A stretch of DNA of 48,477 nt from Fidelibacterota bacterium (GTDB lineage Bacteria; Fidelibacterota; Marinisomatia; Marinisomatales; UBA1611): contig JAOHKG010000007.1 of assembly GCA_028101095.1 (NCBI GenBank), forward strand, positions 1 through 48,477. The letters run 5' to 3'. The translations under genes were made by a program, and so were the position numbers. The notes beneath the pieces were generated by a model. The model was not told the origin of the DNA. It saw only the letters and a list, made by a program, of their open reading frames with translations, and searched no databases. How positions within the stretch are numbered: the first letter of the stretch is position 1; every line of letters starts with the position of its first letter. This document shows, piece by piece, positions 40,608 through 48,477 of the stretch.

Positions 40608-41180
40608 TTAATTAATTTTAAAAGGTTCCATGAATAAATAGGGCTTCCAATCATTTTGTTTTTCTTTAACGAATCGTTGGAAATAATGTAACCTGTTTGG
40701 AGGCTTGGGCTTTTTCCTTAAACTCATATTAGCACTGGAAGGAGTTTCATTACCTTTTTTTTGATTACAGGATCTACATGCTGCAACTAAATTATCCCAA
40801 GAATCTTTTCCTCCACTCGCTTTTGGAATAATATGATCTATGGTCAAAGGCATTTTTTTTTGGCCACAATACTGGCAAGTATAATTATCTCTCTCCAGTA
40901 AATTTTTTCTATTTAAATCAACTGATAAATTATCATATCTTACATAGTCTTTTATTTTAATAATACTTGGAAGACTAACCGTAAGACTAGGACTTTTTAC
41001 AACCTCTTCATAGTTTGATAAAACTTCAACTTTATTAAGAAAGTTTAAGCATATTGCCCTCTTAGCAGTACAAATTGTCATTGGAGCATAATTTGAATTA
41101 AGCACCAAAACTCCGCGATTTAAAATGCTGCCATTAACTGAATTATAGCTTGGGGATTTCACATTAAAACTTACGTTCAA
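40608..41180 (-). CDS. HNH endonuclease family protein
   Basis: RDNYTCQYCGQKKMPLTIDHIIPKASGGKDSWDNLVAACRSCNQKKGN. Confidence 0.88.
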   Translation of the reverse strand: MNVSFNVKSPSYNSVNGSILNRGVLVLNSNYAPMTICTAKRAICLNFLNKVEVLSNYEEVVKSPSLTVSLPSIIKIKDYVRYDNLSVDLNRKNLLERDNYTCQYCGQKKMPLTIDHIIPKASGGKDSWDNLVAACRSCNQKKGNETPSSANMSLRKKPKPPNRLHYFQRFVKEKQNDWKPYLFMEPFKIN

Positions 41181-41871: not shown

Positions 41872-41954
41872 GATATTTTATTTTTATTGTCTGATTTTAA
41901 GAAAATTGATGTTTATATCAATTGGATAAATTCTTATAATTAATTAATGTTTCA

Positions 41955-42115
41955 TATAGATAACTACTTTAAAAGGGAAACTTGTGAAATTCAAGTACAG
42001 TCCCCGCTACTGTAATTACAGAATACACTATTCAATATGTCATTCTTGGCTTTATAGCTGAGGAGAAGGCGGAAAGTGTTGATACTGTATAAGTCAGGAG
42101 ACCTTAATTGTAGAC
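41955..42115 (+). ncRNA. Cobalamin (AdoCbl) riboswitch
   Basis: AAAAGGGAAACTTGTGAAATTCAAGTACAGTCCCCGCTACTGTAATTAC core plus B12-box-like AAGTCAGGAGACCTT; directly upstream of a TonB-dependent receptor and BtuG-like protein. Confidence 0.92.
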
Positions 42116-42146
42116 TTTTAAAAAAGTAAACTTTCGGGAGAAAAGT

Positions 42147-42221
42147 ATGAATAAAGTATTCCATTTTACCATTTTATATCATTTCCCCCTTCATAAAAGG
42201 TGGGAATATCAGTCTATCTAA
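42147..42221 (+). CDS. 24-aa ORF starting at the only good ATG after the riboswitch (leader ORF, or receptor 5' end disrupted by a frameshift)
   Basis: CGGGAG SD-like sequence then ATG AAT AAA GTA TTC ... ATC TAA = MNKVFHFTILYHFPLHKRWEYQSI*; frame is +1 relative to the receptor frame. Confidence 0.5.
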   Translation: MNKVFHFTILYHFPLHKRWEYQSI

Positions 42222-44247
42222 GTTCCTTTCTGTACTGTTCTATCTAAATATTCTCTTCAAATACATTTATGCTGAATCCATAATAGTACATGATCAAGAT
42301 AAACAGGCAGTTGAATTTGCATATGTTCTAAATATTTCAAATAATAATTGGACTGTTACTGATAATTCTGGATCTACCCAAATACCAAAAGACACAAAAA
42401 TTAATGATTCTTTAAAAATACAAAGATATGGATATCGTCCTTTAATTTGTATCTACAGAGGAGAGAATCTTTTTGCTTCCTTACCGAATAAGCCAATATC
42501 ACTTAAAAACATTGATATATTTGCAGAGAGCTATAGTAAAGAAGAAAGTTTTAAGAAAATTAATATTGAAAAAAAAATCGGTCATGAAAATATTTCGCAC
42601 AAAGAATATTTAGAACTTTTACCAGGTGTCCAAGTCAAAACATTAGGTGGACCAGGTAGTATTATCACTGTTAGTTTAAACGGTGGTCCGACATCTCAAA
42701 CTAAAGTGACTATAAACGGTTTTGATTTGACTAATATGCAGACAGGAGTTTCTGACCTTTCTCAATTACCCACAGCGTTTATCAATAAAGCAAGGGTGGT
42801 AACTAGTGGAGCTAAACTTCTTTCATCTGGGTCACAAAATGGAGTTCTAGAATTAAATACATGGAAACCAACAAACTCTTTTTCAAGCACTTTTGGTTCA
42901 TTTAACAGCAGTTCGTCAAGTTTTCAACTTGCTCTTCAATCAAAAATCTTCAATTTATCAATTATTACAGGTTTAAGTAAAAGTGACGGAGATTTTCAAG
43001 TATCATGGAGAGATGAGTCTTTTAAACGGTTAAATAATAATTTCGACCAAAATTATAGTTCATTTAACTTGATTGGAAGATTATCACCTAAACTCTTTTT
43101 TAAGGGGTTTGCTCTTATCTCTAAGCAAAAAAGGGGAGTCCCTGGACTAGTTTGGTCTCCATCAGATGCAGATCATGAAGATGAACTTAAAATTATTGCT
43201 TCAAGTTTAAATTGGTTCACAAACTTGGGTAAACGTTCCATCAATTATATTTATAAAACTTCAAATGATAGTTATGCCAATCCAACATATAACACTAAAA
43301 ATAGGAATAAGCTAACTAGTTCATCTTTGAATATTAAAAATCCAATTTTAAAAAAAGGAAAGCTATTTTCATTTTTTGAATTTGATATTCAAAATCAAAA
43401 CCTAAACAGCAATGGAATGAAATATGAAAAAAATATTTTCATACTTAGCTCATCATCAGTATATAACATCTCTTCTAAGTCAAAAATTATTGGAACATTT
43501 CAGAACAATTACTCAAAGAACTTTTTTAATACAACGACAAGATCAGTAATGATAGATTATGAAATTAAAAACGATTTAATAATAGATAAACTAAGTTTCT
43601 CATCCTCCTCTCATTTTAGACATCCAACATTTAATGACCTTTATTGGAATCCGGGAGGTAATTCTGATCTAGAATCTGAAACTGGCATAAATAATTCTGT
43701 TAATTTTTGGCTTACACCCATATATGATAATATAGTTAGTTTCAATTTATTTCATTCAAATACTGATAATTTAATTCAATGGCTTCCGCTGCAATCTTAT
43801 TGGCAAGCACGTAATATAAATAATGTTGAACGCTATGGACTTACTGGGAATTGGGTTTCTAATTCTAAATTATTTAATAGTCGTTTATCTTTTAGCTTCA
43901 TCGAATCCTATTATGGTATTGATAAAAAGCCTCTTAGGTATTCTCCCAAAAATATTGGAACTATTTTTCTAGAAAAGAATTTTAAAAAGTTCAATATCAG
44001 TACAACTACTCACTTTATAGGGGAAATGGTCTCCGCTTATAGTTATCCAAAAAATAATATTATTCCACCAAATTCTACTACATCAATTTTTATCGATCAA
44101 AAGACGCAACTTAAAAAAATAGAACTAGTAACCTCTTTTTCTGTATTAAATACATTCGATCAAGAGTATGAATCTTCAAGAGGATATCCAGAACCAGGTA
44201 GAAGTTTTAAAATAACAATAATGATAAACCAAAAAAGGAAATACTAA
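42151..44247 (+). CDS. TonB-dependent receptor (BtuB-like by context) with carboxypeptidase-regulatory-like N-terminal domain; no canonical start codon in frame
   Basis: Frame upstream of the track start (42706) encodes a signal peptide (SLSKFLSVLFYLNILFKYIYA), a CarboxypepD_reg-like segment (IVHDQDKQAVEFAYVLNISNNNWTVTDNSGSTQIPKDTKINDSLKIQRYGYRP) and the plug (HKEYLELLPGVQVKTLGGPGSIITVSLNGGPTSQTKVTINGFDL). C-terminal barrel RSFKITIMINQKRKY. Confidence 0.85.
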   Translation: MKYSILPFYIISPFIKGGNISLSKFLSVLFYLNILFKYIYAESIIVHDQDKQAVEFAYVLNISNNNWTVTDNSGSTQIPKDTKINDSLKIQRYGYRPLICIYRGENLFASLPNKPISLKNIDIFAESYSKEESFKKINIEKKIGHENISHKEYLELLPGVQVKTLGGPGSIITVSLNGGPTSQTKVTINGFDLTNMQTGVSDLSQLPTAFINKARVVTSGAKLLSSGSQNGVLELNTWKPTNSFSSTFGSFNSSSSSFQLALQSKIFNLSIITGLSKSDGDFQVSWRDESFKRLNNNFDQNYSSFNLIGRLSPKLFFKGFALISKQKRGVPGLVWSPSDADHEDELKIIASSLNWFTNLGKRSINYIYKTSNDSYANPTYNTKNRNKLTSSSLNIKNPILKKGKLFSFFEFDIQNQNLNSNGMKYEKNIFILSSSSVYNISSKSKIIGTFQNNYSKNFFNTTTRSVMIDYEIKNDLIIDKLSFSSSSHFRHPTFNDLYWNPGGNSDLESETGINNSVNFWLTPIYDNIVSFNLFHSNTDNLIQWLPLQSYWQARNINNVERYGLTGNWVSNSKLFNSRLSFSFIESYYGIDKKPLRYSPKNIGTIFLEKNFKKFNISTTTHFIGEMVSAYSYPKNNIIPPNSTTSIFIDQKTQLKKIELVTSFSVLNTFDQEYESSRGYPEPGRSFKITIMINQKRKY

Positions 44248-44249
44248 AA

Positions 44250-45533
44250 ATGAAAATAATGATAATCTGCTTTGGTCTCTCTTCAATTATATGTGGCCAA
44301 AACCTAAAACTATTTACTCTATGCGAAGGTAACTTTGGATCAGCAAATTCCAGCCTTTGGTCGAGTAGTTTAAATGGAGGGAATATGCATGATATAATAC
44401 ATTGGGATGAAAATTCTAATCCTCTTGGTGATATTGGACAATCGATGTCCATTCACGAAACAAAACTGTATCTAGTAATGAATAATTCGCATACGATTGA
44501 GGTAATGAATTTAGCTGGAGGAGCTTATTATGAAAATACACTTCAGTTACCAAACTCTAGTCCACGTTATATCACTTTTAACGAAGACAAAGGATATATA
44601 TCTTCGTGGAATTTTAATGCTATTTTAATTCTAAATTTAAATAATATGGAAATTGTTGATACCATAGAAATAGATGGGAAACCGGAGCAAATGATTAACT
44701 ATGAGAATCATTTATACATTTCAGTCCCTAATAAAAGTGATTGGACAACAAATGATAAAGTGCTGAAAATGAGGTTAAACGATAATGTAATTGTTGAAAC
44801 TTTTACCGTAGAGCCTGGTGCGAGCATGATGGCAATCCACGGCTCTTCTCTTTTTGTCACATCATCATCATATGATGATATGTGGAATAAGTATTCAGGG
44901 ACATCCAGTATCGATCTATCTAGTGGAGAAGTTTTGAGATATAATGCAGGCCAAACAACCAGTTATGGATCTGATATATTTACTTTCCAAAACAAAATTT
45001 ATCAAATATTTGATGGTGGTTTAGTACCTTTAAACGAAGATCTCTCACCAAATATATCTCAAAAAATAGGAGCTTACCCTTCTCTTTATTCTGCCGACTC
45101 ATACGAAGAATTTTTAGTTTTAGGTATTTCTGATTATGTTGCACCTGACACGGTAATCGTTCTTGATAATGAAGGAGTAGTCCTAGAAGAATTTATAGTA
45201 AGCGCTATTCCAGGTTCTTTTGAATTTTATAATTTTGACTTAGCATCAATTGAAGAGCAGAAAATAATTCCTGATATAGCTTCTATTTATAACTATCCAA
45301 ATCCATTCAATCCAACAACAATAATACAATTTAAAAATGTTTTAAACTCACCATATCGAGTTTATATCTGTGATATAAACGGGAGAAAGATAAAAGAGTT
45401 TGATATTGATAGTTATCAAATAGGTCAAAAAAAAATAATTTGGAATGCTCATAGTAATTCATCTGGAGTTTATTTTGCTGTTTTTGAACAACTAGGCAAT
45501 TCAAATATTAGAAAATTAAGTTTAATTAAATAA
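44250..45533 (+). CDS. BtuG/DUF5074-like (YncE-type) beta-propeller surface protein with C-terminal T9SS type A sorting domain
   Basis: LFTLCEGNFGSANSSLWSSSL...IGQSMSIHETKLYLVMNNSHTIEVMNLAGGAYYENTLQLPNSSPRYITFNEDKGYISSW resembles the DUF5074/BtuG family; C-terminus YNYPNPFNPTTIIQFKN...GVYFAVFE...RKLSLIK; 2-nt gap after the TonB receptor. Confidence 0.78.
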   Translation: MKIMIICFGLSSIICGQNLKLFTLCEGNFGSANSSLWSSSLNGGNMHDIIHWDENSNPLGDIGQSMSIHETKLYLVMNNSHTIEVMNLAGGAYYENTLQLPNSSPRYITFNEDKGYISSWNFNAILILNLNNMEIVDTIEIDGKPEQMINYENHLYISVPNKSDWTTNDKVLKMRLNDNVIVETFTVEPGASMMAIHGSSLFVTSSSYDDMWNKYSGTSSIDLSSGEVLRYNAGQTTSYGSDIFTFQNKIYQIFDGGLVPLNEDLSPNISQKIGAYPSLYSADSYEEFLVLGISDYVAPDTVIVLDNEGVVLEEFIVSAIPGSFEFYNFDLASIEEQKIIPDIASIYNYPNPFNPTTIIQFKNVLNSPYRVYICDINGRKIKEFDIDSYQIGQKKIIWNAHSNSSGVYFAVFEQLGNSNIRKLSLIK

Positions 45534-45536
45534 AAA

Positions 45537-47123
45537 TTAATCTTTGAAATGCCATTTAATAGTTAGGCTTTTTTGCGATCCATTTAATGGCATTTCGGGA
45601 TTAAATTGTACTTCTGTACCTTTTTTATAATAATTAAAAAGCTCAAGCATGTTAATCCAGCTATATTGAATTACAAATGAAGAAACTTTAATACCAATGG
45701 TACCATTTAAAATATTCATCTCTTGAGTTTTTATATTGTCAGTGCTGAAAATAGGAACAAACTCAATTGGGTTAAAATAAACGTTTGATAATGTTTCGCT
45801 AAAATGCTTTACATTTACTTTTAGAGTAATATCCATATAACCACTGAATGTTTTAAAATTAGATTTTAAATCTAATGCAATCCAATCGCCTAATCCTCCA
45901 GTTTGATATGTAATATATTTTTCTTTATTAAAGAATAAACCAAATTCAAAAGTTGGTAACATCGTATTAATATATTCTAAATAAATAGTCTGAGTTTCTG
46001 CTTTATTAATCCAGTTGGGATTTATTTCTTTTACTGAAGAAATTCTTGATAAAAGAGTATTCTGTTTTGATCTCCATTTTGCGGTAAATGAGTTAAATCT
46101 ATTTTTTTCAATTAGCTTTAATCGAATATCGGAGTTTTTAAAATAATAGTATGGGTGGATTGGTTTATTTTCTTCCTTAAGACAAAATATAAAATCAAAG
46201 TTTTTAGTAGATTTTTCTATATCAGCGACAAAATTATAAACATGCTTATCACCAATTGAAGCTAAATCAAAATAAATGCCAATTCCTCCGAAGCTAGTTG
46301 ATAAATAATAGTTATTCCAATTTTGATTTAAAATAGAGTCAAGTTGCAGACTTCTTTTATTTAGAATAAAACCGAGTGAATATTCTATATTATGATTAAC
46401 AGATGACTCAACCTTTCCTTGAACAGTATTTCTAGTTAAATATCGTGAATCTGAAGTCAATGCAAGTGAATGGTTTGATTTATATCTTTGTAAAAAATTA
46501 TCTAAAGAGAAAATAAAATTCAGTCTCCCTTTGGAGTGCTGGAAGTGAGTGTTTGCATTCGTTATTCTGTTACTCAAATAACTTTGATCAACTATGTCTG
46601 GAAAGCCAGAATAGGTATTGAAATGACCTATAGAAATACTTCCCAAATTATTATCTTTTTTTGAACTAAAAGTTCCTATATATGATTGCTGGATAGGTTG
46701 CAATGAGTTATGAAAGTATTGATTTTGGTTGCCAAAATAAGATCTTTTAAAACCTATTAAATCATAACTTCTATTTTTTTGTTTACTATCCAAGTGAAAA
46801 GAAAATTGATCAAGGGAGAAATCTCCTTGTTTGTAATTTATTTTTGATAGAAAAATTGATGAATCAATACTCTTTTGAATGAAATTTGGTTTAAGTTGTT
46901 CTTGAAAATTATTTTCAATATCTGCACCATACATAGTAGGATAGTTTGATAAAACACCGTCAAATAATAATTTTTTTGATTTCCAATCGGTATTGAAGAG
47001 AACTCTTCCATTTTGTTTGAATAAACCAAATTGACCTACCCAATCATAAGGAATAATTTTTATACTTCCCGAAAAAAGAGGGTGAACCATAGATAGTATA
47101 AAAAAAACTAAAAACTTATTCAT
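45537..47123 (-). CDS. Putative outer membrane beta-barrel protein
   Basis: Signal peptide MNKFLVFFILSMVHPLFSG, alternating aromatic beta-strand pattern, C-terminal QKSLTIKWHFKD. Confidence 0.65.
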   Translation of the reverse strand: MNKFLVFFILSMVHPLFSGSIKIIPYDWVGQFGLFKQNGRVLFNTDWKSKKLLFDGVLSNYPTMYGADIENNFQEQLKPNFIQKSIDSSIFLSKINYKQGDFSLDQFSFHLDSKQKNRSYDLIGFKRSYFGNQNQYFHNSLQPIQQSYIGTFSSKKDNNLGSISIGHFNTYSGFPDIVDQSYLSNRITNANTHFQHSKGRLNFIFSLDNFLQRYKSNHSLALTSDSRYLTRNTVQGKVESSVNHNIEYSLGFILNKRSLQLDSILNQNWNNYYLSTSFGGIGIYFDLASIGDKHVYNFVADIEKSTKNFDFIFCLKEENKPIHPYYYFKNSDIRLKLIEKNRFNSFTAKWRSKQNTLLSRISSVKEINPNWINKAETQTIYLEYINTMLPTFEFGLFFNKEKYITYQTGGLGDWIALDLKSNFKTFSGYMDITLKVNVKHFSETLSNVYFNPIEFVPIFSTDNIKTQEMNILNGTIGIKVSSFVIQYSWINMLELFNYYKKGTEVQFNPEMPLNGSQKSLTIKWHFKD

Positions 47124-47637
47124 AGGCTCTTTCTACAAATTTAGGAACAACAATCATAAAAATTAAAGAATTTGAAATTAAATGTAATAAAGTGAAAAAT
47201 AATCCTGCGATGCCATAAACTAAAGTTTCTTTATAGCCATAACCTGCGCTTATGGGGAAAGAAATCGTTGTGATAAAATCATACCACACTGTACACAGAA
47301 AACCAGCTATGACTGATATAAATATTCTATTTTTTGGTGTAACATAAATAATTATTTTCCCGATATAATATCCAAATAGACCAATTCCAGCCATTGCAAA
47401 TACTTGACTGAATAAAAGTGGTAGAAATGCTAACCCCGAGCCTAAAGGATTGAGAATAGAATATATCATTATAGAAGATCCTCCAACAAAAAGACCAGAC
47501 AGAGCCCCTAGATATAATCCAGATAAAAAAATAGTAACACTAATAAATTCAACATTGGGCACAAGAAGAAACATATAACCAAGCCCAATCGCGGTTGCTG
47601 CAAACACAGCTGATTTTACGGTTTTATTCAGGTTCAC
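47116..47637 (-). CDS. ECF-type transporter S component-like membrane protein
   Basis: KTVKSAVFAATAIGLGYMFLLVPNVEFISVTIFLSGLYLGALSGLFVGGSSIMIYSILNPLGSGLAFLPLLFSQVFAMAGIGLFGYYIGK; likely GTG start at 47637 overlapping the HD gene stop, not the track start at 47715. Confidence 0.75.
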   Translation of the reverse strand: MNLNKTVKSAVFAATAIGLGYMFLLVPNVEFISVTIFLSGLYLGALSGLFVGGSSIMIYSILNPLGSGLAFLPLLFSQVFAMAGIGLFGYYIGKIIIYVTPKNRIFISVIAGFLCTVWYDFITTISFPISAGYGYKETLVYGIAGLFFTLLHLISNSLIFMIVVPKFVERAYE

Positions 47638-48477
47638 TTTTTTTAAGAATTGGAATCCCAAAATAATTATATTTATTTGTAAAATCACCTTCTTCAGGAT
47701 CATTTTCAATCGCAATATTCATCAAACTCATTCTTGAATCTGAAAAACCAATTAAGTGGATTAATAATGCTTCAGGAAATGAAGGTAGCTTATGGGACTT
47801 CCACTCATATCTTCCTTGGTGAGATAAAATCACATGCTCAATTTTTTTTGAGTAATGTTCAGGAAAATCTTTTATCTTAGATATAAAATCACGAACCATA
47901 TCCCTACCAATTACATTATGCCCAAGTAAATTTCCATTACCACTGTAGCTTAAAATATATTCCGAGCTAATCTCTTCTATTTTTCCTATTTTGTGTAAAA
48001 AAACACCTGCAAGGACTAAATCTCTATCTACATCATACAGTTTTGTGATCTTTTTTGCTATATTGGACATCCTTAAAATATGTTCTAAAAAACCAGATCT
48101 ATAGTTATAGTGCATATTAACTGAGGCGGGATGATACATTATTTTTTTCTTATTTTTTTTATAAATACCAATAACTAATGCTTTTAGTTTATTATTTGTT
48201 ATTTCGTTTATAATTATATTAATGTCATTCCACATTTTCAGAGGATCTTTTTTTGACGTTGGTACAATTTTAGCAGGGTCGAATCCATATCTACTATAAT
48301 GCTGAACCGTTGCCTTATTTATCTTTTTGACATTTAATTGATTTGAATCAATAAAGTATTCAACAATACCAGATACAGCAACTGCATTCCCCGCTTTAAA
48401 CTTCTCATTATAAAGAGCCACATTATTCCAAATTTTAGCATTAATATGACCTGTAGTATCTTTTAATGCTAAGTCTA
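47624..48477 (-). CDS. OB-fold/HD domain 3'-5' exoribonuclease (YhaM-like), partial
   Basis: Frame is open to the window edge (DLALKDTTGHINAKIWNNVALYNEKFKAGNAVAVSG OB-like), HD-like segment YRSGFLEHILRMSNIAKKI...LAGVFLHKIGKIEEI...HVILSHQGRYEWKSHKLPSFPEALLIHLIGFSDSRM. Confidence 0.82.
   Translation of the reverse strand, partial: DLALKDTTGHINAKIWNNVALYNEKFKAGNAVAVSGIVEYFIDSNQLNVKKINKATVQHYSRYGFDPAKIVPTSKKDPLKMWNDINIIINEITNNKLKALVIGIYKKNKKKIMYHPASVNMHYNYRSGFLEHILRMSNIAKKITKLYDVDRDLVLAGVFLHKIGKIEEISSEYILSYSGNGNLLGHNVIGRDMVRDFISKIKDFPEHYSKKIEHVILSHQGRYEWKSHKLPSFPEALLIHLIGFSDSRMSLMNIAIENDPEEGDFTNKYNYFGIPILKKSEPE

Follow-up and report, generated by a model that had tools for sequence, protein, structure and literature searches.

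An anchor-exchanged BtuB-BtuG-like unit behind a cobalamin riboswitch in the marine phylum Candidatus Neomarinimicrobiota

In BtuB2-BtuG2 and BtuB3-BtuG3 of Bacteroides thetaiotaomicron, the known systems nearest to the one described here, a riboswitch-controlled BtuB receptor is paired with a seven-bladed beta-propeller, BtuG (PMC10404256, PMC6143338). All 13 hydrogen bonds to B12 lie in blades 1-4 of BtuG2, and the N-terminal linker serves as the hinge of this lid on BtuB (PMC10404256). Nearly all Bacteroidetes homologs of BtuG carry an export signal and a lipobox Cys, and a 2018 eLife study found no homologs outside the Bacteroidetes (PMC6143338). A different precedent, for relayed riboswitch control, was established experimentally in Mycobacterium tuberculosis, where the direct target of the ppe2 B12 riboswitch is a translated leader, uPPE2 (PMC11260477). 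Here we describe a locus on a 48,477-nucleotide stretch (hereafter the window) from a member of Candidatus Neomarinimicrobiota (Fidelibacterota), a little-known marine phylum, in which a cobalamin riboswitch, a BtuB-type TonB-dependent receptor and a propeller protein with a type IX secretion system (T9SS) tail follow one another on the + strand (41927-45533; features below lie on this strand unless stated otherwise). The host assembly is 1.22 Mb long and 60% complete, and we surveyed 61 genomes of its order. The locus is an anchor-exchanged BtuB-BtuG-like unit, and no BtuG was known from its phylum. We consider it likely that it serves vitamin B12 uptake in the manner of BtuB-BtuG, with a T9SS-anchored BtuG and leader-relayed control, in which B12 binding, export, anchoring, hand-over and leader translation are the predicted steps.

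The 427-residue BtuG-like protein is encoded at 44250-45533, and phmmer, AlphaFold2 and Foldseek together delimit its seven-bladed propeller to residues 18-329 (44301-45236). A preliminary description, made from the letters of the window, had likened the N-terminal half of the protein to DUF5074/BtuG; the likeness is real, but its extent was understated, since residues 21-324 match Bacteroides BtuG chains in the PDB with E 6e-14 from the single sequence by phmmer and 2.5e-29 by profile, at about 20% identity. The comparison with BtuG2 proposed there yielded a beta-propeller model, its predicted local distance difference test score (pLDDT) mostly above 90, for which the first 16 Foldseek ranks in the PDB are all BtuG chains, most from B12-bound entries. 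DUF5074 (PF16819) matches residues 22-140 (E 8.5e-6, 25.5 bits) and was found in 20 of 26 family members at E <= 1e-3. On these alignments and the modelled fold, the protein is a true relative of BtuG, homologous over the whole propeller.

The likeness to BtuG of B. thetaiotaomicron, which shares the fold, extends to the core motifs of the B12-binding blades. The BtuG2 numbering comes from a single offset that brings nine residues cited in PMC10404256 into register with the PDB chain. The positions that never vary among 16 relatives and match BtuG2 include E55, G56, L88-G89-D90, N107-N108-S109, P132-R133, W149, E180 and W194, the last a pocket-lining residue in the wall of the upper-ligand cavity; 15 of the 16 relatives also keep Y335. 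The residues shared with BtuG2 concentrate in the N-terminal blades. A function in B12 capture is a prediction well supported by homology.

The receptor lies at about 42214-44247, in a frame open from 42151 to 44244 with its stop at 44245-44247, so that the propeller gene begins 2 nt after it, as the preliminary description had stated. The TonB-dependent receptor that it placed behind the riboswitch is likewise confirmed, with a Plug domain (PF07715, E 3e-8), a match to the NCBIfam TonB-B12 model TIGR01779 (E 8e-20) and BtuB as its fold match. The TIGR01779 score of 70.9 bits is below the equivalog cut-off of 599.7 bits, which makes the protein a distant BtuB member. A profile of 16 receptor orthologs recovered Bacteroides BtuB2 and BtuB3 first in the PDB and E. 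coli BtuB next, and the AlphaFold2 model (pLDDT 85.6) has BtuB at fold ranks 1-14. By profile and predicted fold, it is a B12-type TonB receptor. At 42214, where its start codon would be expected, the sequence is CTA as against TTG in the nearest relative, and an in-frame ATC stands 6 nt upstream (42208-42216). The exact start is therefore uncertain; the CTA may be an assembly error, a rare start or a sign of a damaged gene.

In its anchor the locus departs from BtuBG of B. thetaiotaomicron: in this other phylum, a C-terminal T9SS sorting domain replaces the N-terminal lipid anchor and hinge linker. The putative signal peptide, MKIMIICFGLSSIICG followed by QNLKLF (44250-44297), was read from the sequence, and its Cys15 lies outside any lipobox. 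Residues 349-423 of 427 (45294-45518) form a T9SS type A sorting domain that passes both curated cut-offs, at 32.5 bits for Por_Secre_tail PF18962 (cut-off 27) and 28.7 bits for TIGR04183 (cut-off 23), with the motif YNYPNPFNPTT...GVYF at the extreme C-terminus. The protein thus resembles T9SS type A cargo (PF18962/TIGR04183) in its Sec-like signal peptide, its sorting domain and the presence of machinery genes in the host, which encodes 37 T9SS tail domains and an SprA that clears its cut-off at 364 bits; what sets it apart as cargo is its predicted role as vitamin-binding partner to a TonB receptor.

The same alternative runs through the whole family, as counted from the full alignment and a named set of propeller proteins. 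Twenty proteins, the window's included, are of the tail type: they end in a T9SS domain and lack both the lipobox Cys and the N-terminal linker, the signal peptide stopping a few residues ahead of the first propeller strand. Another 53 (34 from Neomarinimicrobiota and 19 from Bacteroidota) lack the tail and instead carry a lipobox Cys followed by a linker of about 12-22 residues. No protein has both anchors or neither; L022, the sole unassignable protein in the tree, is truncated where its contig stops. T9SS tail and lipobox are mutually exclusive across the family. The tail and the lack of a convincing lipobox, already noted in the preliminary description, therefore hold both for the window's protein and for the other tail-type members. 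Because the N-terminal linker is the hinge in Bacteroides, the tail-type proteins have lost the hinge along with the lipid, and because the lipobox is missing we class the window's protein as a BtuG-like variant and not as a canonical BtuG lipoprotein. We found no T9SS-carried BtuG in the literature searched, which is no proof of absence elsewhere.

Possession of a T9SS does not account for the choice of anchor: SprA and PorU score over cut-off in 55 and 43 of the 61 genomes (PorU also in the same-genus G001), lipobox genomes included, and we reject it as the cause. Parsimony on the propeller-only tree counts four anchor changes, while a single tail clade remains acceptable under the approximately unbiased test (p 0.28). 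We accordingly make no claim of many independent swaps.

The propeller is encoded in 33 of the 61 genomes. Its named relatives belong to Candidatus Neomarinimicrobiota, and weaker matches are Bacteroidota BtuG-like lipoproteins. Wherever enough upstream sequence was available, the window included, the Neomarinimicrobiota propeller gene stands behind a cobalamin riboswitch (53 of 53 loci). The survey of related genomes envisaged in the preliminary description thus finds the riboswitch-receptor-propeller unit recurring across the order, and since it recurs in dozens of genomes the arrangement is not a matter of chance. With the fold and the pairing both upheld and the anchors either/or throughout the family, the differently anchored BtuB-BtuG system that the same description had suggested is the best reading of the locus.

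Upstream of the receptor, the riboswitch aptamer (41927-42119) matches the full Rfam model RF00174 (1-189) at 81.1 bits (E 1.6e-18; gathering score 31.5 bits) and is the only such match in the host assembly. This agrees with the preliminary description, whose start at 41955 was slightly late. The L5 loop reads CCCG (42003-42006). A P13/L13 arm conserved in relatives, ACTTT-CGGGAGA-AAAGT (42130-42146, loop at 42135-42141), follows the aptamer and holds the Shine-Dalgarno-like GGGAG of a short leader open reading frame (ORF). The letters of the two loops covary: loci with L5 CCCG carry L13 CGGG, and 13 loci with L5 TCGCG carry L13 CGCG(A). By this covariation, L13 is the kissing-loop partner of L5.

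The predicted leader ORF has 24 codons, MNKVFHFTILYHFPLHKRWEYQSI and a stop (42147-42221), and overlaps the receptor's start region. Its position, frame and stop-to-start offset are the same in all 23 main-type loci (the window, L022-L030, L032-L038, L095, L098, L100, L102, L121 and L133): 24-27 codons opening with ATG or GTG directly after the L13 arm, in a constant frame (+1 to the receptor), and in 22 loci a receptor GTG, TTG or ATG precedes the leader stop by exactly 5 or 8 nt, the window having the same spacing but CTA at -5. Shuffling the interval gives this geometry in 8.6 of 23 loci, a comparison that is indicative and no strict probability because the loci are related. Within the leader lies a hairpin, TTTCCCCCTTCATAAAAGGTGGGAA (42182-42206), that is terminator-like in many relatives but has no U-tract in the window, where its folding z is -0.75 against a mean of -2.8 across the 23 loci; with so weak a hairpin, we claim no terminator in the window itself.

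This arrangement resembles ppe2/uPPE2 of M. tuberculosis, where the L13 region adjoins the site at which a short ORF is initiated and the stop of that ORF overlaps the start of the main gene. The positional coupling to the main start codon that a ppe2-type leader requires is seen here, as geometry, in all 23 loci. The present arrangement differs in the unrelated phylum, in its BtuB-BtuG target, in its fixed -5/-8 offset and 24-27 codons, and in the terminator-like hairpin found within the leader of many members. We infer that the leader is a candidate riboswitch-controlled translation relay to the receptor. With B12 bound, L13 would dock on L5 and hide the ribosome site of the leader. Without B12, the leader would be translated, and its ribosomes would traverse the internal hairpin and then restart at, or couple to, the receptor start.

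In ten variant loci (L103, L105, L110, L111, L113, L116, L117, L125, L151 and L094) the reading frame of an L13-adjacent ATG continues as BtuB, whose signal-peptide codons contain a terminator-like hairpin. At loci L046-L050, where BtuG stands without a receptor, the L13-adjacent ATG is the BtuG start.

Taken together, we propose that when B12 is scarce the riboswitch would permit synthesis of the BtuB receptor and of BtuG as a surface B12-binding propeller. BtuG would be exported by Sec and then cross the outer membrane through the T9SS by means of its C-terminal domain. Most likely it would be held on the surface by its C-terminus (sortase PorU, lipopolysaccharide), capture B12 there and hand it to BtuB. 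Both the anchor and the hinge of Bacteroides BtuG, its N-terminal lipid and linker, are missing from this protein. Anchoring through a C-terminal T9SS link is the likely arrangement.

Several observations weigh against this proposal. In the profile search that the preliminary description had suggested, TIGR04183 passed its cut-off but the DUF5074 match fell just under the gathering score (25.5 against 27.2). The BtuG2 pocket residues W272, Y316 and Y239 lie in stretches that cannot be aligned with the propeller. No canonical start codon (ATG, GTG or TTG) stands at the expected position in the receptor gene, and the window's own leader hairpin is weak. PorU was not found in the host genome, which is 60% complete. 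Proteins with such tails may, moreover, be secreted instead of anchored. T9SS cargo may be either released or attached.

This last point underlies the main rival explanation, that the tailed BtuG leaves the cell as a soluble B12 scavenger, in the medium or on vesicles, and is no lid on BtuB. In keeping with it, none of the tail-type proteins has the N-terminal linker by which BtuG2 is pinned to BtuB. We nevertheless consider release unlikely: BtuB is co-encoded at every tail-type locus whose upstream gene lies within the available sequence, a freely lost protein would be costly to a small-genome plankton cell, and PorU, the sortase responsible for attaching type A cargo, occurs widely in the order. 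Far less probable is that the propeller is a generic YncE/PQQ-type protein that does not bind B12 and stands beside BtuB by chance. A weak NCBIfam match to PQQ_ABC_repeats (E 8e-4) would fit such a protein, but its best structural and sequence matches are all BtuG, and the linkage to the riboswitch is strict even where BtuB is missing. Least credible of all is that the protein remains a lipoprotein through Cys15 in SSIICGQ, with the T9SS tail extra or vestigial, because, although this Cys is near the end of the signal peptide, it is preceded by Ile and not by Gly, Ala or Ser, the other 19 complete tail-type relatives have no Cys at that place, and the 12-22-residue linker of the lipobox relatives is absent here.

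The chromosomal address of the unit is fixed across families. One flank comprises scpB, scpA, trpS, an HNH gene and an NlpC/P60 gene, and the other a gene for a 528-residue protein, an ECF-type gene and an HD/YhaM-like gene. In several genomes the same address holds a lone lipobox BtuG with a riboswitch and no receptor. Lone genes of this kind make up loci L039-L053 (in G003, G009, G010, G011, G013, G018, G019, G020, G024, G026, G028, G030, G031, G032 and G051). No BtuB-like match was found in any of these 15 genomes, though each holds 7-26 plug-domain TonB receptors, and a second receptor behind another riboswitch is rejected, as none has more than one riboswitch. G025 carries a tail-type BtuBG operon (its BtuG cut before the tail), and other genomes of genus code g10 carry the lone form.

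Among the neighbours in the window, a secreted-looking protein of 528 residues (45537-47123), for which no Pfam or NCBIfam family was found, and an ECF-transporter S-component-like protein are encoded on the - strand (45537-47715 together) in convergent orientation to BtuG; many relatives have the two at this address as well. Also on the - strand, between trpS and the NlpC/P60 gene, an HNH gene (40608-41180) is conserved across the order; among NCBIfam models it comes closest to the IscB HNH region (E 2e-21, though far short of the cut-off), and its product is probably an ordinary HNH nuclease.

A bolder joint proposal is that the BtuG lid works with a C-terminal T9SS anchor and that the only direct target of the riboswitch is a compulsory translated leader, which would both open an internal terminator and bring ribosomes to btuB; we advance it tentatively, at somewhat less than even weight. 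If the anchor has indeed moved from the N-terminus to the C-terminus, then the 'pedal-bin' hinge of Bacteroides would not be essential to B12 hand-over, and the alternative anchors offer a natural experiment on the need for it. The fixed geometry of the leader ORF would likewise provide a second, testable case of a riboswitch working via a translated relay peptide. BtuG, described as a lipoprotein exclusive to Bacteroidetes with an N-terminal hinge, now emerges across an abundant marine phylum, with cobalamin riboswitches upstream. With its two alternative anchors, the family may extend surface capture of B12 from the gut to the ocean, where the vitamin is scarce.

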